A DNA stretch of 64,000 nt from positions 1 through 64,000 of the forward strand of contig JAJFGO010000106.1 in assembly GCA_021776095.1 (NCBI GenBank), given 5' to 3'. The notes under the pieces were generated by a model. The model was not told the origin of the DNA and ran no database searches. It saw nothing but the letters and a program-made list of their open reading frames with translations. Positions 295 through 10,601 of this stretch are shown here, piece after piece. Made by a program: the position numbers and the translations under genes. How positions within the stretch are numbered: position 1 is the first letter of the stretch; the number at the start of each line of letters is the position of its first letter. This stretch comes from Kiloniellaceae bacterium. GTDB taxonomy: Bacteria; Pseudomonadota; Alphaproteobacteria; Kiloniellales; J153.

Positions 295-966
295 ATGAAA
301 CGGATTGCGTTGATTTTTACGTTCACCGGACTTGTCGCGGCGGCGGCCTTGGCCTTCGCGCCGACAGTTGGCGCACACGGGCCCGAAACCGAGCCAGACG
401 ACTCAGGTCAGCGCCCTCAAATCGATAGCGGGCGCATGGACGGCGAGCACATGGACGGCGAGCACATGGACGGCGGGCATATGGGCGGTGGCATGATGCC
501 GCAAGACTTAGACGAAATGCGCGAGTTGCATCGCGGCCATAAGCATGGCCACGATTTCGAGGCGATGGGCGAGATGTCGCCCCAACAGCGCGCCCGGGTC
601 ATGGCCCTGATGCATGAAATCGGTGTGGCAATGCCGCCCATGGATCCGCGACGCGGACGCCTCCTCTTCGTCAACAAGGGTTGCGTCGCCTGCCATGCGG
701 TCAACGGCATCGGTGGCGATCTCGGTCCGGCGCTTGATGCCGCCGATATGCCGCGACCGATGAACGCCTTCGAGTTCGCCGCGCGTATGTGGCGGGGGGC
801 GCAGGCAATGACGGCGCTACAGGAAGACCTGTTGGGAGATGTAGTCGCGCTGGACGGTCAGGATCTCGCCGATCTCGTCGCCTTCGCCCACGACAGCGAG
901 GAACAGGCACGGTTGAACGCGGACCAGATCCCCGAACGCTTTCAGACTGTAATAGACGGCGATTAG
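295..966 (+). CDS. c-type cytochrome with His/Met-rich region
   Basis: Predicted periplasmic monohaem cytochrome c, 223 residues. Residues 1-27 form a Sec signal peptide. A single haem-binding CVACH motif sits at residues 130-134, followed by a class I cytochrome fold in which conserved Met residues could serve as the sixth ligand. Before the haem domain lies a low-complexity stretch (about residues 48-67) built from MDGEH-type units and GGGMM, rich in His and Met and resembling copper-binding segments. An AAAGGAG Shine-Dalgarno lies just upstream of the ATG. The FNR/FixK box at 218-231 suggests microoxic expression. The electron partner is unknown. The family is certain from CxxCH; the specific role is not recognised. 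Confidence 0.85.
   Translation: MKRIALIFTFTGLVAAAALAFAPTVGAHGPETEPDDSGQRPQIDSGRMDGEHMDGEHMDGGHMGGGMMPQDLDEMRELHRGHKHGHDFEAMGEMSPQQRARVMALMHEIGVAMPPMDPRRGRLLFVNKGCVACHAVNGIGGDLGPALDAADMPRPMNAFEFAARMWRGAQAMTALQEDLLGDVVALDGQDLADLVAFAHDSEEQARLNADQIPERFQTVIDGD
433..481 (+). repeat. 15-bp tandem repeat in cytochrome gene
   Basis: Three head-to-tail copies of a 15-base unit, ATGGACGGCGAGCAC with the third slightly diverged, encode MDGEH-MDGEH-MDGGH in the cytochrome gene. In-frame unit length means slippage would change the number of His/Met pairs without breaking the gene. Confidence 0.8.
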
Positions 967-994: not shown

Positions 995-1393
995 TCAGAA
1001 AAGGCCGTTGACCTTCTGCACGGCTCGGACGTAGTCGATGATCGTCTTTAACTGTTCGTCGTTGACGCCTTCGACCGGCTTCATGTCACCGAACTGCCAG
1101 TGGTGCGCCTTGGCGCCCTGTTTCGGCGCCACCATGAAGGCGCGGTCGCCGTGATGGCCCGGATGATAGACGCGGTGCAGGAAGGTCGGGCCCTTGTCCG
1201 AACCGGCCGTGCTGGCGCCGTGGCATTCGGCGCAATAGGCATCGTAGTTCAGCTTGCCGAGGTTCAGCCTCGGGGTCATGTCCGGCTGCTTGACCGAGCC
1301 CAAGTCGAGCTGTTGGCCGGCGACCGGCAGTTGACCGGCGGCGAAGACACCAGCAGCAACAAGCGCTCCGGTGATCCATTGCTTGGTTCTCAT
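995..1393 (-). CDS. small periplasmic c-type cytochrome
   Basis: Monohaem class I cytochrome c of 132 residues. Residues 1-26 form a signal peptide. The haem motif CAECH is at residues 54-58, and a GDMKPV segment about 50 residues later fits the axial Met ligand. The C-terminal helix NDEQLKTIIDYVRAVQ is typical of the fold. It would carry electrons in the periplasm. It converges on the cytochrome gene at 295-966, with stops 28 bases apart, so the two haem genes may serve related chains but are not co-transcribed. The partner oxidase or dehydrogenase is not in the window. Confidence 0.85.
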   Translation of the reverse strand: MRTKQWITGALVAAGVFAAGQLPVAGQQLDLGSVKQPDMTPRLNLGKLNYDAYCAECHGASTAGSDKGPTFLHRVYHPGHHGDRAFMVAPKQGAKAHHWQFGDMKPVEGVNDEQLKTIIDYVRAVQKVNGLF

Positions 1394-1649: not shown

Positions 1650-2090
1650 CTATCGTTTCCGTGGCTCCGGACTCGACACCGGCCGGCGCGCCTCGCAATG
1701 GGGGTCGAGCAGAGCGTCCAGGATCGGACAGGTGCCGCCGAGCGTGTCGGGACAGGCCTCCGTGATGGTCAGCAGCGCGTCGGCAATGCGCGTCAGGTTG
1801 GCGATCCGCCCACGCACTTCCTCGAGGTGTCGACTGGCAATCGCCTTTACGCCGCACTGGTCGGGTTGATCCGCTGCGGCAAGCGCCAGAAGCGAACGAA
1901 CGTCCTTCAGCGAAAATCCCAAGCGCCGAGCGCTTCCGATGAAAGCCAGTTGCTGTGCATGCACGCGGCTGTACACGCGATAGCCGTTGGCGCCCCGCGG
2001 CGGTGGCGTGATGGCGCCCGCTTTCTCATAGTATCGGACAGTTTCTACGCTGAGCCCGGCCTGCTCCGCGACCTCGCCTACCCTCAGCAT
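1650..2090 (-). CDS. MerR-family metal-sensing regulator (ZntR/CadR/PbrR/MerR type)
   Basis: Transcriptional regulator of 146 residues. Residues 1-70 form the MerR winged helix-turn-helix (GEVAEQAGLSVETVRYYEKAG, then NGYRVYS). A dimerisation helix follows, then a metal-binding loop. Cysteines fall at 79, 113 and 121, matching the three-cysteine pattern of MerR, ZntR, CadR and PbrR; CueR and GolS have Ser at the position of Cys79. This predicts a sensor of a divalent soft metal (Zn, Cd, Pb or Hg), not Cu(I). A fourth Cys is at 132 near the tail. The gene is divergent from the operon at 2300-5173, with a MerR-type operator between them. Which metal it senses cannot be read from sequence. Confidence 0.88.
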   Translation of the reverse strand: MLRVGEVAEQAGLSVETVRYYEKAGAITPPPRGANGYRVYSRVHAQQLAFIGSARRLGFSLKDVRSLLALAAADQPDQCGVKAIASRHLEEVRGRIANLTRIADALLTITEACPDTLGGTCPILDALLDPHCEARRPVSSPEPRKR

Positions 2091-2119: not shown

Positions 2120-2150
2120 TTGACCCTAGAGTAACTATAGGGTTTAGCCT
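2120..2150 (+). promoter_or_regulatory. MerR-type promoter/operator with 19-bp spacer
   Basis: A -35 element TTGACC (2120-2125) and a -10-like TAGCCT (2145-2150) are separated by 19 bases, the over-long spacer typical of MerR-activated promoters. Between them is a 21-bp dyad (2123-2143) with arms ACCCTAGAG and CTATAGGGT around TAA, close to known CadR/PbrR/ZntR operators. The promoter reads rightwards towards the gene at 2300, not towards the regulator. Confidence 0.8.
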
Positions 2151-2202
2151 TTGTCAGACCCTTCGGAGATCTTCCGCCCGGATGACGGTGCCGCACGCGA
2201 TT

Positions 2203-2259
2203 AAAGGGCGCGTTCCAAGTTGCCGGTACACATTGACATTCCTGGCGCCCGCGCCCTTT
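2203..2259 (+). other. long hairpin in operon leader
   Basis: A perfect 10-bp inverted repeat, AAAGGGCGCG (2203-2212) and CGCGCCCTTT (2250-2259), encloses 37 bases in the leader between the MerR-type promoter and the first gene. No T-run follows, so it is not a classical terminator. It could be an RNA structure or a second protein-binding site. Confidence 0.5.
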
Positions 2260-2299
2260 GAGCCTTCCCGTCACCTAATCAGCGAGGGCATTTGCGTCG

Positions 2300-3340
2300 A
2301 TGGCAAATTTGTGTAGCGGCCTTCTAATTCGCTGGGTGATTCCGATCGTTGGCGCGGGCGTGGCCACCGGCGTCCTCTTTTGGCTGTATCAGGACCTCGA
2401 CGCCAAGCGCCTTGCCAACGCGCTTTCGTCGGCAAAACCGGTTTGGCTGCTTTTCCTCGCCGGCAGCATCCTGGCCGAACAGCTGCTGCGTGGATGGAAG
2501 TGGCGCCAGATCCTCTTCGATCTGCAGCCGGTTTCCAGTTGGCGGCTGTTCGGCGCCATCCTCGCCGGCTATGGCGTCGCTACGCTCATCCCGCTCGGAG
2601 TCAGCCCACTGGTGCGTTCGTGGCTCATCGCCAGGCTGGAGAACCTGCGGCTGGCATGCGTTCTTGTCACTGCGGCGATCGAGCGATTCATCGACGGCAT
2701 CGTCTTCGGCATCATCGTCGGACTTGTCGCGCTGGCCAGCCAAATACCCCAAGTCGAGGGCAGTCTGCGCGTCGGCCTGGCGATCGCCGGGGTTCTGAAC
2801 GTGGTGCTGTTCGCCGGTCTTCTGTGGTTGCTGTTCAGGGGCCGCGGCCATCTGGCCCGCCACGACAGCCGGATCGGCCGTCTGATCGACTGGATCGCGT
2901 CGAAAGCCGGCACGCGGTTTGCCGGTCTGCGGGTCTCTATTGCCGAGGGCATCGTCTGGCCGAAGCGGCGCGCGCGCCAGACCGGCATCGTCGCCGCCAG
3001 TGTCATGATGAAGGCGGTCGCGGCGACGCATTTCGTCTGGGCGGGGCTGGCTGTCGGCGTGACGTTGAAGCCGTTCGACTATCTGTTTCTGCTGGTATTT
3101 GCGGGTTTCGCGCTGGTACTGGCGCGGTTCATACGCGTGCCCGGTGGCTTCGTCATCGGCTCCGGTTATGCCTTGAAGCTTCTCGGTGTCGCCGACGACA
3201 AGGCCGTCGCCATGATCCTGTTCAACAACGTTCTCAGCATTCTGCTCGTGGTCGGCATCGGCCTTACCGTGCTGTGGCGGAGCGGAATAGCGATTCGCAC
3301 GCTGGCGCACCACAGAGACGAGAACGATGCGCCGGCCTGA
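2300..3340 (+). CDS. flippase-like integral membrane protein (LPG synthase TM / UPF0104 family)
   Basis: 346-residue polytopic membrane protein with about eight hydrophobic segments. It resembles the lysylphosphatidylglycerol-synthase transmembrane family (UPF0104), which includes MprF flippase halves and HpnL-like proteins, usually linked to lipid or glycolipid translocation. No MprF-type catalytic domain is attached. It is the first gene after the MerR-type promoter at 2120-2150 and overlaps the next gene by 14 bases, so it probably starts a three-gene operon. A role in moving a lipid or lipid-linked molecule across the inner membrane is inferred from the family only; the substrate is unknown. 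Confidence 0.75.
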   Translation: MANLCSGLLIRWVIPIVGAGVATGVLFWLYQDLDAKRLANALSSAKPVWLLFLAGSILAEQLLRGWKWRQILFDLQPVSSWRLFGAILAGYGVATLIPLGVSPLVRSWLIARLENLRLACVLVTAAIERFIDGIVFGIIVGLVALASQIPQVEGSLRVGLAIAGVLNVVLFAGLLWLLFRGRGHLARHDSRIGRLIDWIASKAGTRFAGLRVSIAEGIVWPKRRARQTGIVAASVMMKAVAATHFVWAGLAVGVTLKPFDYLFLLVFAGFALVLARFIRVPGGFVIGSGYALKLLGVADDKAVAMILFNNVLSILLVVGIGLTVLWRSGIAIRTLAHHRDENDAPA

Positions 3341-4622
3341 CGGCAGCGGCAAGGCAGGCAGCCCGGCATTCTGGAAAATCGCCGGTGCCGGTGCCGCCTT
3401 TCAGGCCGGTTCCTCGGCCGTGGATTCGGCAACCATCGTTGCCAGTCTCGTCTATCAGCTCACCGGCAATGTCTTCATCGTCGCCGCCGCAAGCGCCGCA
3501 TTGCGGCTTGGCTGGCTGTTACCGCAAGCGGTGGTCGGCTTCTTGGCGCAGCGCGCGGACCGCAGCATGCCGTTCTACATCGTCGGTGCCTTCGGCCGAG
3601 CGATCTGCCTTCTCCTGATCGCGCTGCTGCTTGCCGTCGCCGCTGGATTGCCGCAGGCGTGGATCGCTGGCGGTTTTTTGGCGCTGTGGACCCTCTATGC
3701 CTTCGTAAGCGGCGTCGTCGCAGTACCCTACAACGACATCGTCGGGCGTCAGGTTCCCTCGAAATCTCGCAGCCGGATGCTGGCTCTGAGGTTTTTCGGC
3801 GGCGGCATACTGGCGCTTGCAGTCGCCGCTCTAGTCCATCGCCTGCTCGCCAGCCAAGGCCTTTTTGCCGCGCACGCTCTAATTTTCGCCCTCGCCGCGA
3901 CCCTGATGCTCTTGTCGTCCATAATCTTTGTCTCCGCCGGGGAACCGCAATCGCCGCGTTCATCGGCTTCGATGCCCGCCAGTTTCGGCGAATTCTTGAG
4001 CGACGGTATGACCGTTCTCCGGACAGACGCGCGCTTTCGCCTGTTTTTGTTCACCCAATGGCTCGGCGGCGCCAGCCTCATGGCTCTGCCCTTCTATATC
4101 GTGGCGGCGACCGACCTGGGACTTGCGGCGCCGGACGTTGCCATCCTGCTCGGCGCCCAGACGGCCGGGTCGCTGGCGTCAAATTCCGTCTGGGGCCGCA
4201 TCGGCGATCAATTCGGCAAGCTGCGCCTGTTGCGGGCCGTCGGCGTACTGCGAATCGTGCCGCCGCTTGGCGCACTCCTATGCCTTGCCCTCGCGAACCA
4301 GCAGGCGGACTGGTGGCTGGTGGCATTTGTCGGTCTCTTCCTGCTGATCGGTGCGCTGATCAACGGCACTACAATCGCTTTTCTCGGCTTTTTGATGGAA
4401 ATCTCGCCCGACGATCGGCGTCCCGCCTATTCCGCCTACTTCAATGTTCTGGCTTCGCCGGCAGCGTTGTTGCCCCTGGCCGGCGCCGCCATCGCAAGCG
4501 CGATCTCGCTTTGGACCGTCTTCGCCGCTGCGGCGGCGGCGGCGGCTGTCCAACTGTTGCTGATCAAGAAACTGGCGAACCGGAATATCGGCCCGAGGAG
4601 CTCACCGTGCGCCGGGCCATGA
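3327..4622 (+). CDS. MFS transporter
   Basis: 431-residue major facilitator superfamily carrier with about twelve membrane segments. An MFS motif-A-like turn lies between helices 2 and 3 (GFLAQRADRS), with a weaker counterpart in the second half (WGRIGDQFGKLR). The start lies inside the end of the flippase-like gene, and the stop overlaps the ATGA of the next gene, so translation is probably coupled. The alanine-rich C-terminal helix is followed by a short polar tail. It is probably an exporter of a small molecule, but I cannot assign a subfamily or substrate. Co-expression with a metal-sensor promoter suggests a stress or detoxification role. Confidence 0.85.
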   Translation: MRRPDGSGKAGSPAFWKIAGAGAAFQAGSSAVDSATIVASLVYQLTGNVFIVAAASAALRLGWLLPQAVVGFLAQRADRSMPFYIVGAFGRAICLLLIALLLAVAAGLPQAWIAGGFLALWTLYAFVSGVVAVPYNDIVGRQVPSKSRSRMLALRFFGGGILALAVAALVHRLLASQGLFAAHALIFALAATLMLLSSIIFVSAGEPQSPRSSASMPASFGEFLSDGMTVLRTDARFRLFLFTQWLGGASLMALPFYIVAATDLGLAAPDVAILLGAQTAGSLASNSVWGRIGDQFGKLRLLRAVGVLRIVPPLGALLCLALANQQADWWLVAFVGLFLLIGALINGTTIAFLGFLMEISPDDRRPAYSAYFNVLASPAALLPLAGAAIASAISLWTVFAAAAAAAAVQLLLIKKLANRNIGPRSSPCAGP

Positions 4623-5173
4623 GACCAGTCTGGCTTTCGCTGGCACTACGCGTCTGGCCGCTGGCCCGCTTGTGGTATCGCCTGTGGGGCCTGCGGCTTG
4701 ACGGCAGACCCGGCGACCTCGTTTGGTACTTTGCCTATGGCGCGAATATGCATGACAGCGCCTTTCTCGGACGTCGCCGCATGCGGCCAAAAGACTGGCG
4801 CGTCGGCCGCATCAGAGACTATCGGCTACGATTCAATCTCGATGGACGGCCAAAGGGCCGCGCTGCGCCGGCCAACATCAGTTCGGAAAAAGGGGCTGAA
4901 GTCTGGGGTGTGCCATACGGCATTACGCAGCGCGAATTCGTCCGTCTCAACGCCTCGGAAGGGGTTCCCGGCCGGCGCTACCGTCCGCTTTGGCTGCAAG
5001 CGGCAGACGAAGAGGGAAACGGCCTTACCGCTGTCACCTATATCGCCGCCGGCAACGATGAGGACGGGCGGCCATTACGACGTTATATCAGTCTCTTGAG
5101 AGCGGGCGCCCGAGCGCACGACTTGCCAGCGCACTGGATTGATTCTCTTGACCAGATCAAGCCCGCGGATTGA
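4607..5173 (+). CDS. gamma-glutamylcyclotransferase-like protein (GGCT/AIG2 fold)
   Basis: Predicted 188-residue protein. The family signature YFAYGANM is at residues 41-48. The catalytic-glutamate segment ASEGVPGRRYR gives the candidate acid/base Glu118. The C-terminal LPAHW...L..I.P.D pattern resembles animal GGCT. Such enzymes convert gamma-glutamyl-amino acids to 5-oxoproline. I chose the GTG at 4607 because GAGGAG lies six bases before it; the in-frame ATG at 4619 would be 18 bases away. The first 35 residues (rich in Leu, Trp and Arg) are extra to the family and could be a membrane anchor. It is the last gene of the MerR-controlled operon, with its start inside the end of the MFS gene. 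Confidence 0.78.
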   Translation: MRRAMRPVWLSLALRVWPLARLWYRLWGLRLDGRPGDLVWYFAYGANMHDSAFLGRRRMRPKDWRVGRIRDYRLRFNLDGRPKGRAAPANISSEKGAEVWGVPYGITQREFVRLNASEGVPGRRYRPLWLQAADEEGNGLTAVTYIAAGNDEDGRPLRRYISLLRAGARAHDLPAHWIDSLDQIKPAD

Positions 5174-5261: not shown

Positions 5262-7310
5262 TCAAGCCGCTTCGCGCTCGCTGTCCGCAACGATCTCGAC
5301 GATGGCGCCCAGGATGGCCGTCAGGTCATAGTCCTTGGGCGTGAAGACGGCGGCGACGCCGGCGGCTTCCAGGGCGGCGGCGTCTTCCGGCGGGATGATG
5401 CCGCCGACGACGACCGGCAGCTCGCCAAGACCGACATTGCGCAGGCGCTCAAGCACCTCGGTCACCAGCGGCAGGTGCGAGCCCGACAGCACCGACAGGC
5501 CGATGACGTGCACGCCTTCTTCCAAGGCACCGTTGACGATCTGTGCCGGGGTCAGGCGGATGCCCTCGTAGACCACCTCGAAGCCGGCGTCGCGGGCGCG
5601 CACGGCGAGCTGTTCGGCGCCGTTGGAATGGCCGTCCAGGCCCGGCTTGCCGACCAGCATCTTGAGCCGCCGGCCGAGCCGGGCCGAGACATCCGAAACC
5701 CGCGCGCGCACGTCTTCCAAGGCGGCGGCCCCTGAGTTGGATACCGCCGCGGCGCGGCCGACGCCGGTCGGCGCGCGGTATTCGCCGAAGGCGTCGCGCA
5801 GGGCCCCGGACCATTCGCCGGTGGTCACCCCGGCGTGGGCGCAGGCGATGGACGGCTCCATGATATTGCGGCCCTCGGCGGCGGCGGCCTTGAGTGCGGT
5901 GAGCGCAGCCTCGGCGGCTGCGCCATCGCGGGTGTCGCGCCAGGCCTTGAGGCGCGCGATCTGCTCCGCCTCAACATTGGAGTCGATGGCCAGGAACCCG
6001 CCGTCGCCGCCGTCGGTTAAGGGCGAGGGTGCGGACTCGGTATAGGCATTGACCCCGACCACGGTCTGCTTGCCGGTCTCGATCGCCGCCAGGCGGCGCG
6101 CGTTGCTCTCGACCAGGCGCTCCTTCATGTAGGCGCTGTCGATGGCCGCGACCGCGCCGCCCATGTCTTCGATCCGGGCCAGCTCGCCGCGCGCCTCTTC
6201 GATCAGCTCCGCAACCTTAGCTTCGATCACCGGCGAACCCTCGAAAATGTCGCCGTACTCGAGCAGATCGGTTTCGTAGGCGACAATCTGTTGCAGGCGC
6301 AGCGACCATTGCTGATCCCACGGCCGGGGCAGGCCCAAGGCCTCGTTCCAGGCCGGCAGCTGCACCGCGCGGGCGCGCGCGTCCTTGGACAGGGTGACCG
6401 CCAGCATCTCGAGCAAGATGCGGTAGACGTTGTTTTCCGGCTGCTGTTCCGTGAGGCCGAGGGAGTTAACCTGCACGCCATAGCGGAAACGGCGCAGCTT
6501 GGGGTCTTCGACCCCGTAGCGCGTGCGGCAGGTCTCGTCCCACAAGCGGGCGAAGGCGCGCATCTTGCACATCTCGGTGATGAAGCGCACGCCGGCGTTG
6601 ACGAAGAAGCTGATCCGCCCGACCACGGCGGGGAAGTCCGCCTCGGGCACCTGACCGGCCGCCCTGATCGCGTCCAGTATCGCAATCGCATTAGCGAGCG
6701 CGAAGGCCAGCTCCTGCACCGGGGTCGCGCCGGCTTCTTGCAGGTGATAGGAGCAGACGTTGACCGGGTTCCACTTGGGCACCTGACGGTAGGTGAAGGC
6801 GATGGTATCGGTGATCAGGCGCATGGAGGGCTGCGGCGGGAAGATATAGGTCCCGCGCGAGAGGTATTCCTTCAGGATGTCGTTCTGTGTGGTGCCGCTG
6901 AGGTTGTCGCGCGGGATACCGCGTTCCTCGGCCAGGGCCACATAGAGCGCCAACAGCCAGGCCGCGGTCGCGTTGATGGTCATGGAGGTGTTCATGCGCT
7001 CCAAGGGGATGCCCTCGAACAGCGCGCGCATATCGCCCAGGTGGCCGACCGGCACGCCGACCTTGCCGACCTCGCCCTTGGCCAGGGGATGGTCGCAGTC
7101 GTAGCCGGTTTGAGTCGGCAGATCGAAGGCGACCGAAAGCCCGGTCTGACCGCGCGCCAAGTTGGTGCGGTAGAGCTCGTTCGAGGCCGCTGCGGTCGAA
7201 TGTCCGGCATAGGTGCGGAACATCCAGGGCTTGTCCCGGCCATCGCCGGTTGCCGCTTTTTCGGGCGGGCTCTTAGCCGCTTTCGCAGCCTTGTCGTTAG
7301 GCTTTGCCAT
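5262..7310 (-). CDS. ecm: ethylmalonyl-CoA mutase (MeaA-like)
   Basis: 682-residue adenosylcobalamin-dependent mutase. The N-terminal TIM-barrel substrate domain is recognisable from YAGHSTA, FDLPTQTGYD and the TTQNDILKEYLSRGTYIFPP region. The C-terminal B12-binding domain has the base-off motif DGHSNG (about residues 557-562), then GLSVLSGSH and VVVGGIIPPED. Both domains on one chain, with this length, fit ethylmalonyl-CoA mutase more than two-subunit methylmalonyl-CoA mutase. It converts (2R)-ethylmalonyl-CoA to (2S)-methylsuccinyl-CoA. The divergent crotonyl-CoA carboxylase/reductase and the dehydrogenase after it supply the flanking steps, which supports the assignment. The N-terminal 25 residues are a Lys/Ala-rich tail. 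Confidence 0.93.
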   Translation of the reverse strand: MAKPNDKAAKAAKSPPEKAATGDGRDKPWMFRTYAGHSTAAASNELYRTNLARGQTGLSVAFDLPTQTGYDCDHPLAKGEVGKVGVPVGHLGDMRALFEGIPLERMNTSMTINATAAWLLALYVALAEERGIPRDNLSGTTQNDILKEYLSRGTYIFPPQPSMRLITDTIAFTYRQVPKWNPVNVCSYHLQEAGATPVQELAFALANAIAILDAIRAAGQVPEADFPAVVGRISFFVNAGVRFITEMCKMRAFARLWDETCRTRYGVEDPKLRRFRYGVQVNSLGLTEQQPENNVYRILLEMLAVTLSKDARARAVQLPAWNEALGLPRPWDQQWSLRLQQIVAYETDLLEYGDIFEGSPVIEAKVAELIEEARGELARIEDMGGAVAAIDSAYMKERLVESNARRLAAIETGKQTVVGVNAYTESAPSPLTDGGDGGFLAIDSNVEAEQIARLKAWRDTRDGAAAEAALTALKAAAAEGRNIMEPSIACAHAGVTTGEWSGALRDAFGEYRAPTGVGRAAAVSNSGAAALEDVRARVSDVSARLGRRLKMLVGKPGLDGHSNGAEQLAVRARDAGFEVVYEGIRLTPAQIVNGALEEGVHVIGLSVLSGSHLPLVTEVLERLRNVGLGELPVVVGGIIPPEDAAALEAAGVAAVFTPKDYDLTAILGAIVEIVADSEREAA

Positions 7311-7608
7311 ACCTTCGATCCATATAATGTGCCCCGGAACGCGGCGGCGCGGCGGTCCTTCGCGGGTGCGTCATAAACCCGCACCCAGCGCCATAATACC
7401 GCGAGCCAAGAAGTGTTTTATGTCGATTTTCTTGAATTGATTGTAATTTTATTACGTATAACACGCCAAAACAGCACTTATCAACCGATTTGTGCGTTGC
7501 AATAAGACTCGCCAAACGCTAGGGTCCGCGTCGCGCGCCGGCCCCCTGGCCGGGCGAATGAGGAGCACACATCCGGGGTCACCTTCCGGGCACATATCGA
7601 GGAGAGCG
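7311..7608. promoter_or_regulatory. divergent ecm/ccr control region
   Basis: 298 bases between two divergent pathway genes. A hairpin (GGGTGCG 7364-7370, CGCACCC 7380-7386) lies in the ecm leader. An AT-rich core at about 7410-7470 holds imperfect inverted copies of GTGTTTTATG and CGTATAACAC, a likely operator and promoter zone. I cannot name the regulator. Confidence 0.5.
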
Positions 7609-8898
7609 ATGATGACGGAAACCGCAGCCGAAGCAACGCAGGCTCAGGCGGTTCAGGCCAAAAAGGATCTCTACGAAATTGGCGAGATCCCGCCGCTCGG
7701 CCACGTGCCCAAGCAGATGTACGCCTGGGCCATCCGCCGCGAGCGCCAAGGCGAACCGGAAACCGCCATGCAGTGCGAGGTGGTCGAGGTCCCAGAGATC
7801 GACAGCCACGAGGTCCTGGTCATGGTGATGGCCGCCGGGGTCAACTACAATGGCGTTTGGGCCGGCCTGGGCAAGCCGGTCTCGGTCTTCGACGTGCACA
7901 AGGCGGATTACCACATCGCCGGATCGGACGCCGCCGGCATCGTCTGGGCGGTTGGCTCCAAGGTCACCCGCTGCAAGGTCGGCGACGAGGTCGTCGTACA
8001 CTGCAATCAGGACGACGGCGACGACGAACAATGCAACGGCGGCGATCCCATGTTCTCGCCGTCGCAGCGGATCTGGGGCTACGAAACTCCGGACGGCTCT
8101 TTCGCGCAATTCACCCGGGTGCAGGCGCAACAGGTCATGCCCCGGCCCCTGCATCTGACCTGGGAAGAAAGCGGCTGCTATATCCTGACCCTGGCCACCG
8201 CCTACCGCATGCTGTTCGGCCACCGGCCGCATATCCTGCGCCCGGGCCACAATGTCCTGGTCTGGGGTGCTTCTGGCGGGCTCGGCTCCATGGCGATTCA
8301 GTTGATCGCCACCGCCGGGGCGAACGCCATCGGTGTGATCTCCGACGAGACCAAGCGCGAATTCGTAACCCAACTAGGCGCGCGCGGGGTCATCAACCGC
8401 AAGGATTTCGACTGTTGGGGCCGCCTGCCGGAGGTCAACGACACCGGCGGCTACGGCGCCTACATGAAGAAGTGCCGCGAGTTCGGCAAGGCGATTTGGG
8501 AGACCACCGGCAAGGGCACCGATGTCGATTTCGTCTTCGAGCACCCGGGCGAGCAAACCTTCCCGGTCTCCTGCTTTGTAGTCAAGCGCGGCGGCATGGT
8601 GGTATTTTGCGCCGGCACCACCGGCTACAACATCACCTTCGACGCGCGCTTCGTGTGGATGCGCCAGAAACGTATCCAGGGCAGCCACTTCGCCAACCTC
8701 AATCAATCGAGCCAGGCCAACCGCCTGGTCATCGAGCGGCGCATCGACCCCTGCATGTCGGAAGTTTTCGCCTGGCACGACATTCCACGCGCGCACACCA
8801 AAATGATGAAGAACCAGCATCGCCCCGGCAACATGGCGGTCCTGGTCCAAGCCCCCCGCCCAGGCCTGCGCACCCTGGAAGACGCAATCGAGGGATGA
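7609..8898 (+). CDS. ccr: crotonyl-CoA carboxylase/reductase
   Basis: 429-residue medium-chain dehydrogenase/reductase that reductively carboxylates crotonyl-CoA to (2S)-ethylmalonyl-CoA with NADPH and CO2. The family N-terminus (KKDLYEIGEIPPLGHVP) and the segment NYNGVWAGLGKPVSVF are distinctive. The NADPH-binding loop is VWGASGGLGSMA. The asparagine in NYNGVW and the histidine in QGSHFAN match residues known to hold CO2 in characterised CCRs. I chose the ATG at 7609, which follows GAGGAG; a second ATG directly after it is possible. Length equals the usual 430. The gene overlaps the next start (ATGA), so the two genes are coupled. Confidence 0.95.
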   Translation: MMTETAAEATQAQAVQAKKDLYEIGEIPPLGHVPKQMYAWAIRRERQGEPETAMQCEVVEVPEIDSHEVLVMVMAAGVNYNGVWAGLGKPVSVFDVHKADYHIAGSDAAGIVWAVGSKVTRCKVGDEVVVHCNQDDGDDEQCNGGDPMFSPSQRIWGYETPDGSFAQFTRVQAQQVMPRPLHLTWEESGCYILTLATAYRMLFGHRPHILRPGHNVLVWGASGGLGSMAIQLIATAGANAIGVISDETKREFVTQLGARGVINRKDFDCWGRLPEVNDTGGYGAYMKKCREFGKAIWETTGKGTDVDFVFEHPGEQTFPVSCFVVKRGGMVVFCAGTTGYNITFDARFVWMRQKRIQGSHFANLNQSSQANRLVIERRIDPCMSEVFAWHDIPRAHTKMMKNQHRPGNMAVLVQAPRPGLRTLEDAIEG

Positions 8899-10601
8899 GT
8901 CAGGCTGCGGACATGAACAGCCGCCCCGATAGCGGAACTCTCGTCCTGCCCGCCTTGCTGCGCACGTGCCAAGCGGCGCTCGTCGCGACCGAAGCCTTAC
9001 GCGATGCAGCCAAGACTGCGGTCGCGGCGCGGGTCGCGCCGAGCGGCAAGGTTGACGCCGGTCTTCTGGAGCGCGAGCAGTTCGCCGCCCACGGCTATGC
9101 CTGGCTGGCGACCTATGTTAGTGCCCTCGCGCAAATGCTCCATTGGGCCGAGCGGCTGGATGGCGAGCAAGCCCTGGGCGAGTTGGAAAGCCTGATCCTA
9201 CAGGCCGCCTTCGGGGAATACCTGCAACAGATGACCGGCGGCATCCTGCTCAGCCAGGTCGAGATTGTCCGGCCCGGCGATATGGGTTTGAGCGGCGCGG
9301 CGGTCGCGCGTTTCCGCGACGACCCGGTAGTCGAGGCCCTGGTCACGCGCGGCAACACCAGCGCCGCCCGTCAGCGCCTGGCCGAGATGATCGGCGAGAA
9401 TCTGGGCTCCGGCAATTTCGGCCAGGTCGCCCTGGGCGACGAGACGCTCGAGATGGTCCGCGATCAGTTCCGCAAGGTCGCGGACGACCACATGGAAGCG
9501 GCGCACGCCTGGCACCGCAAGGACGAGCTGATCCCCGACGCCGTGGTCGCGCAGTTGTCCGAGTTGGGCGTCTTCGGCCTGACCGTGCCCGAGGACTTCG
9601 GCGGTTCGGGCCTGGGCAAGACCGCCATGTGTGTGGTGACCGAGGAGCTGTCACGCGGCTATATCGGGCTCGGCTCGCTCGGCACCCGCTCCGAGATTGC
9701 GGCGGAGCTGATCCGCCTGGGCGGAACCGAGGAGCAGCAGGCCAAGTGGCTGCCCAAGATCGCCTCGGGCGAAATCCTGCCGACCGCGGTCTTTACCGAG
9801 CCCAACACCGGCTCGGACATGGGCGCGCTCAAGACCCGCGCGGTCCGTAACGGCGAAGTCTACAGGATTACGGGCAACAAGACCTGGATCACTCACGCCG
9901 CGCGCAGCGACGTCATGACCCTGCTGGCGCGCACCAACCCGAACGAACCGGGCTACAAGGGCCTGTCCATGTTCCTGGCCGAAAAGCCGCGCGGCACCAA
10001 GGCCGATCCCTTCCCGGCGGCCGGCATGAGCGGCGGCGAGATCAAGGTGCTCGGCTACCGCGGCATGAAGGAATACGAGCTCAGCTTCGACGGCTTCGAG
10101 GTCAAGGCGGAGAATCTGCTGGGTGGGGTCGAGGGCGAGGGCTTCAAGCAGCTCATGGCGACCTTCGAATCGGCCCGGGTGCAAACTGCCGCGCGCGCCG
10201 TCGGGGTGGCGCAGAACGCCCTCGAGCTCGGCCTCGCCTACGCCCTGGACCGGGTGCAGTTCGGCAAGCCCATCGCCGCCTTCCCGCGGGTCGCGGGCAA
10301 GCTCGCCTGGATGGCGGTCGAGACCATGATCGCCCGGCAACTGACCCTTTTCGCTGCGCGCGAAAAAGATTCGGAGCGCCGTTGCGACATCGAGGCCGGC
10401 ATGGCCAAGTTGCTGGCCGCGCGGGTCGCCTGGTCGAACGCCGACAACGCCCTGCAAATCCACGGCGGCAACGGCTATGCGGAGGAATACAAGATCAGCC
10501 GCGTGCTGTGCGACGCGCGCATCCTCAACATCTTCGAGGGCGCCGCCGAGATTCAAGCGCAGGTGATTGCGCGGGGATTGCTGTCACCGGGACGGAATTA
10601 A
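8895..10601 (+). CDS. mcd: (2S)-methylsuccinyl-CoA dehydrogenase
   Basis: 568-residue FAD-dependent acyl-CoA dehydrogenase. About 150 extra N-terminal residues precede the standard fold, a hallmark of methylsuccinyl-CoA dehydrogenase. The standard fold follows: FGLTVPEDFGGSGLG, the flavin-binding TAVFTEPNTGSDMG, and the C-terminal HGGNGYAEEY and FEGAAEIQ, whose Glu matches the catalytic-base region of acyl-CoA dehydrogenases. It oxidises (2S)-methylsuccinyl-CoA to mesaconyl-CoA and passes electrons to ETF (encoded at 15.7-17.4 kb). The start overlaps the ccr stop by ATGA. The end overlaps the convergent nnrS gene by four bases. Confidence 0.93.
   Translation: MSQAADMNSRPDSGTLVLPALLRTCQAALVATEALRDAAKTAVAARVAPSGKVDAGLLEREQFAAHGYAWLATYVSALAQMLHWAERLDGEQALGELESLILQAAFGEYLQQMTGGILLSQVEIVRPGDMGLSGAAVARFRDDPVVEALVTRGNTSAARQRLAEMIGENLGSGNFGQVALGDETLEMVRDQFRKVADDHMEAAHAWHRKDELIPDAVVAQLSELGVFGLTVPEDFGGSGLGKTAMCVVTEELSRGYIGLGSLGTRSEIAAELIRLGGTEEQQAKWLPKIASGEILPTAVFTEPNTGSDMGALKTRAVRNGEVYRITGNKTWITHAARSDVMTLLARTNPNEPGYKGLSMFLAEKPRGTKADPFPAAGMSGGEIKVLGYRGMKEYELSFDGFEVKAENLLGGVEGEGFKQLMATFESARVQTAARAVGVAQNALELGLAYALDRVQFGKPIAAFPRVAGKLAWMAVETMIARQLTLFAAREKDSERRCDIEAGMAKLLAARVAWSNADNALQIHGGNGYAEEYKISRVLCDARILNIFEGAAEIQAQVIARGLLSPGRN

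Follow-up and report, generated by a model that had tools for sequence, protein, structure and literature searches.

The locus examined here, in a 64,000-nucleotide window of a Kiloniellaceae genome, raises the question of what a MerR-type metal sensor controls when the operon that its promoter reads into encodes no P-type ATPase, CDF, or RND pump. That absence, reported in an initial annotation of the window, holds for the operon, whereas the oddity which the annotation saw in it does not; the gene set is better read as an accessory of mercury resistance (mer) whose reductase and transporters are encoded elsewhere. We consider it probable (roughly 0.7) that the operon is a soft-metal-inducible accessory module of mercury resistance. 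The link to mercury and soft metals is the well-supported part of this reading; the chemistry is not. The link was invisible from the window because it contains no mer structural gene, and a comparison of the window with mer and copper reference proteins returned no relatives beyond the regulator, the three operon genes, and two cytochromes (Table 1).

Table 1. Features of the locus, with positions in the window
Feature	Positions	Strand	Basis
c-type cytochrome with Met/His-rich stretch; possible associate	295–966	+	homologues beside flip in L033, L035
Small c-type cytochrome; possible associate	995–1393	-	homologues beside flip, MFS, or GGCT in L027, L033, L035, L041, L069
MerR-family soft-metal sensor gene	1650–2090	-	Pfam/NCBIfam; PDB relatives CueR, CadR, MerR; Cys pattern
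MerR-type promoter/putative operator, TTGACC-19-TAGCCT, with 21-bp dyad at 2123–2143	2120–2150	+	sequence, pattern scan, shuffles
flip: MprF-flippase-type integral membrane protein (LPG_synthase_TM, without synthase domain)	2300–3340	+	PF03706; AF2 model retrieves MprF structures first
MFS carrier, subfamily in and beside mer operons	3327–4622	+	PF07690, neighbourhoods, MerA co-occurrence
GGCT: gamma-glutamylcyclotransferase-like	4607–5173	+	start GTG 4607 or ATG 4619; PF13772/PF06094, human GGCT match, invariant columns

The regulator gene diverges from the promoter, which reads into flip, MFS, and GGCT. The promoter combines TTGACC, a 19-bp spacer, and a weak -10 element, TAGCCT, and the dyad, ACCCTAGAGTAACTATAGGGT, pairs at 9 of 10 positions, a score that none of 200 shuffled versions of this intergenic region attained. 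A dyad within a 19–20-bp spacer promoter adjacent to the regulator gene is the arrangement of the MerR family, and this dyad is the sole site in the 5-Mb genome with at most one mismatch to the MerR-type pattern. The long-spacer promoter and 21-base dyad described in the initial annotation are thus borne out.

The three genes very probably form one transcript, because they overlap (flip and MFS by 14 bases, MFS and GGCT by 4–16 bases), and the gene set proposed downstream of the promoter is confirmed by these overlaps and by Pfam. The flip product scores 77 bits against PF03706 (cut-off 33.4), and its AlphaFold model (mean pLDDT 82) gives MprF entries as all of its top five fold matches (probability 1.00, TM 0.45–0.59). 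It thereby resembles the flippase domain of MprF in both Pfam match and best fold match but is devoid of the aminoacyl-PG synthase domain, and its flipping of lipid is putative. A fold search with the MFS model retrieved generic MFS proteins, and the attempt to read a substrate from it was dropped; searches of the PDB with sequence profiles of flip and MFS yielded nothing useful. For GGCT, the closest PDB match is human gamma-glutamylcyclotransferase, whose catalytic glutamate is Glu98. The equivalent residue in the window protein, Glu118, is invariant in 10 aligned members, and the Y/F-G-A-N (YGxN) motif is kept. This predicted enzyme differs from the human type in its N-terminal extension and in its place within a metal-linked operon. 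In alignments of the flip, MFS, and GGCT families, no conserved cysteine was found in any of the three, in which they differ from Hg(II) carriers of the MerT/MerF class. A direct cysteine relay of bare Hg(II) by the operon products therefore appears unlikely from their sequences, and the handling of thiol or gamma-glutamyl compounds or lipids is more plausible.

The two c-type cytochromes beside the regulator gene are possible members of this metal-linked set, because their homologues adjoin flip, MFS, or GGCT in five relatives. Downstream, inspection by eye reveals an unrelated ethylmalonyl-CoA pathway set (mutase, crotonyl-CoA reductase-like, and acyl-CoA dehydrogenase genes; 5262–10601).

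Many other genomes share the gene order, a check that the initial annotation had proposed. Among 27 relatives of flip from a scan of genome contigs and eight plasmid records, flip-MFS-GGCT occurs in Kiloniellales and Rhodospirillales metagenome-assembled genomes, on an Indioceanicola plasmid, and on a Sulfitobacter plasmid. In Ruegeria, Leisingera, Marinovum, and a Rhodobacteraceae isolate, flip-MFS occurs without GGCT, with a divergent MerR gene ~90–165 bp upstream. The flip gene also stands alone, with no metal genes, in Aurantimonas and others, including same-genus genomes. Together, flip and MFS form the core of the module, to which GGCT is an optional addition. In another proteobacterial class, a heavy-metal P-type ATPase gene lies immediately upstream of flip-MFS-GGCT (L095, 11037–13535), and two loci have a Met-rich DUF7482 protein encoded next to the MerR gene linked to flip or MFS (L038, 9244–9837; L074, 4044–4604).

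In several genomes, these genes lie within or beside mercury-resistance loci. The order merR-merF-merA-flip-MFS is contiguous in G094, and the Indioceanicola plasmid carries merR-T-P-F-A, an oxidoreductase gene, a MerR gene, and a hypothetical gene followed by flip-MFS-GGCT. Shorter clusters read merR-merF-GDCCVxC-flip-MFS-GGCT (L019) and flip-merF-merR (L033). The MFS subfamily closes mer operons after a CcdA-like gene in Roseibium and Leisingera methylohalidivorans and adjoins a full mer operon in G195. Depending on the mer locus, it is paired with flip or with a CcdA-like thiol-electron carrier, which suggests MFS as the constant element. A CcdA/DsbD-type gene stands directly before MFS in five loci (L044, 7318–9230; L045, 7194–9269; L070, 7399–9215; L093, 8394–10294; L094, 8334–10270); several such pairs lie at a mer operon, with the CcdA/DsbD-type gene as an alternative partner to flip.

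The association was examined by co-occurrence in 385 evenly drawn alphaproteobacterial genomes, with MFS counted at E<1e-100 and MerA above its curated cut-off. MFS was found in 10 genomes from ten families; MerA is present in 8 of these versus 27 of the other 375 (Fisher p=8e-8). The window's own genome is one of the ten, and p=7e-7 when it is left out. As small genomes seldom carry MerA, the test was repeated with 200 genomes taken to be large enough, a number that is an assumption and not a count (p=5e-6). The link of flip alone to MerA is weaker (4 of 6, p=8e-4). A second, phylum-wide sample added three genomes with MFS: in one, from another proteobacterial class (G737), merR-T-P-F-A lies ~5 kb from flip-MFS-GGCT, and in the other two MFS follows a CcdA-like gene and the surrounding ~8 kb contain no mer gene.

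The operators and regulators of the relatives point in the same direction. The Tn501/Tn21 mer operator is TCCGTAC-N4-GTACGGA, of which GTAC-N4-GTAC is required for MerR binding (PMC11049809). A mer-type operator, TCCGTAC-N4-GTACGG, precedes flip in L038, and near-matches are present in Rhodobacterales, where the flip promoters of Leisingera, Marinovum, and Ruegeria read TTGAC(T/A)CCGTA(C/T)CATGATAC(G/A)G with a 20-bp spacer; that of the Indioceanicola plasmid is TTGACTCCGTACCTTGGTACGGCGGCTAAGGT, also with a 20-bp spacer. The closest PDB entry to the flip-adjacent regulator of Ruegeria is Tn501 MerR, which the group of flip-linked Rhodobacterales regulators joins, weakly, in the tree (88/51). 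In a further locus (L030, 7929–7960), the mer-type operator is kept before flip and an adjacent MerR gene was not found. Conserved gene order, mer-type operators and MerR neighbors in relatives, and co-occurrence with MerA together give the initial proposal of a metal-responsive operon good support at the level of sequence.

Which metal the window regulator senses is a narrower question. The protein of 146 residues has MerR and MerR-DNA-bind domains above the Pfam cut-offs (PF13411, PF09278, and PF00376), including the helix-turn-helix, and a scan of the locus with defense-system models returned this helix-turn-helix match and nothing else. Its cysteine pattern, Cys79 at the start of the dimerization helix and Cys113 and Cys121 in the metal loop, with a further Cys132 in the tail, agrees with the three-cysteine description given initially and is that of the Hg/Pb/Cd/Zn group. 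The metal of this regulator probably belongs to that group, and copper is less likely; we take it to be a soft metal, most likely mercury. Two routes to the metal were abandoned: NCBIfam scores, as all four model families score alike and MerR proteins adjoining merA also fail the cut-offs, and the regulator tree, as the window regulator sits on an overly long branch and was not placed.

The regulator could instead be a PbrR-, CadR-, or ZntR-like sensor of Pb, Cd, or Zn, this copy having turned to another soft metal while the module still belongs to mercury loci. The cysteine triad fits this divalent group, the four model families give similar scores, and the window operator, with its 19-bp spacer, differs from the Tn501 type and looks like lead and cadmium operators. 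However, the C-x7-C spacing of the regulator is the same in alphaproteobacterial MerR proteins adjoining merA, and the operators of these proteins, which precede merT and merF (CTGTAGT-N-ACTACAG), are of the window's type, the merT site of the window's own assembly sharing 13 of 18 bases with it. We therefore regard a Pb/Cd/Zn sensor as unlikely.

A CueR-type regulon, in which the operon answers Cu(I) as part of copper resistance and the mer links reflect clustering in metal-gene islands, would account for several observations that speak against the mercury reading. The window regulator scores slightly better against the CueR equivalog TIGR02044 (112 bits, curated cut-off 147.4) than against the MerR equivalog TIGR02051 (100 bits, curated cut-off 150.85), a cut-off that does not discriminate here since MerR proteins adjoining merA (L038, L072) also fall below it; the long-branched regulator groups loosely near CueR, and four relatives lie in copper islands (L011, L037, L040, L041). 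E. coli CueR, however, has no cysteine at the place aligned with Cys79, the regulators linked to flip in other genomes are of MerR type and have mer operators, and MFS lies inside mer operons, so that a copper regulon is improbable. We give little credence to a general envelope or thiol housekeeping operon with an incidental MerR association, as might be suggested by triads with no nearby metal gene (L015 and L016, also L013 on a short contig) and by solitary flip genes, because MFS co-occurs with MerA over ten families, the operators are conserved, and these genes are direct members of mer operons.

Neither the operon nor the rest of the window encodes MerA. A merT-P-F-A cluster is present on another contig of the same assembly (C1, 3029 bp), with its mer operator at the contig end; this contig could be a contaminant (estimated contamination 4.4%). 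Joining it to the left end of the window contig was tried and rejected, as the two have no end overlap and no shared 20-mers. The genome contains a second cluster, MerR-MerF-GDCCVxC (L049, 7076–8390), whose regulator is of the type linked to flip in relatives.

The regulation of the operon would follow the MerR family: the three-cysteine sensor would hold the over-long promoter silent, and binding of a soft metal ion would untwist it and turn on flip-MFS-GGCT. From their linkage, the products would support MerA and MerT, replacing neither. Because no cysteine is conserved in any of the three, their targets may be the effects of Hg(II) and not the bare ion. The MFS protein may transport a small thiol through the inner membrane, or else a gamma-glutamyl compound or a metal-thiol complex; GGCT may cut gamma-glutamyl compounds so that thiol is recycled, and the flippase-type protein may move lipid or otherwise adapt the membrane; as a whole, this chemical model is tentative. 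The link to glutathione or other gamma-glutamyl compounds proposed in the initial annotation is possible given the retained active-site features of GGCT, but GGCT is not core, as it is absent from several versions of the module (Rhodobacterales, G094).

The window operon is reminiscent of the alphaproteobacterial mer operon, merR-T-P-F-A, in its MerR-type sensor and long-spacer promoter, and the relatives' genes lie inside or beside mer; it differs in having no reductase or Hg(II) transporter and in products without conserved cysteines. A low-molecular-weight thiol gene within a mer operon has precedent in Thermus, whose mer operon holds the bacillithiol gene oah2 (PMC8261052). That gene serves to make a thiol, whereas GGCT would cleave gamma-glutamyl compounds, and the two are unrelated. 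Neither MFS nor flippase nor GGCT is named in that study, which deals with mer diversity. The initial statement that no system with this gene set had been described stands in the searchable papers, in which we found none with flip-MFS-GGCT; their coverage is partial, making this weak evidence of novelty.

Mercury resistance is among the best-known metal systems, and a gene set conserved with it in several orders has seemingly gone undescribed. We consider it possible, if doubtful, that MFS, an MprF-type flippase (or a CcdA-type thiol-electron carrier), and GGCT constitute a new layer of mercury resistance, a thiol/gamma-glutamyl cycle feeding or relieving MerA. In the culturable marine genera Ruegeria and Leisingera, the module offers a handful of genes that can be tested, and if its proteins handle thiols or lipids, not the ion, it would show that survival of Hg(II) has other needs besides reduction.
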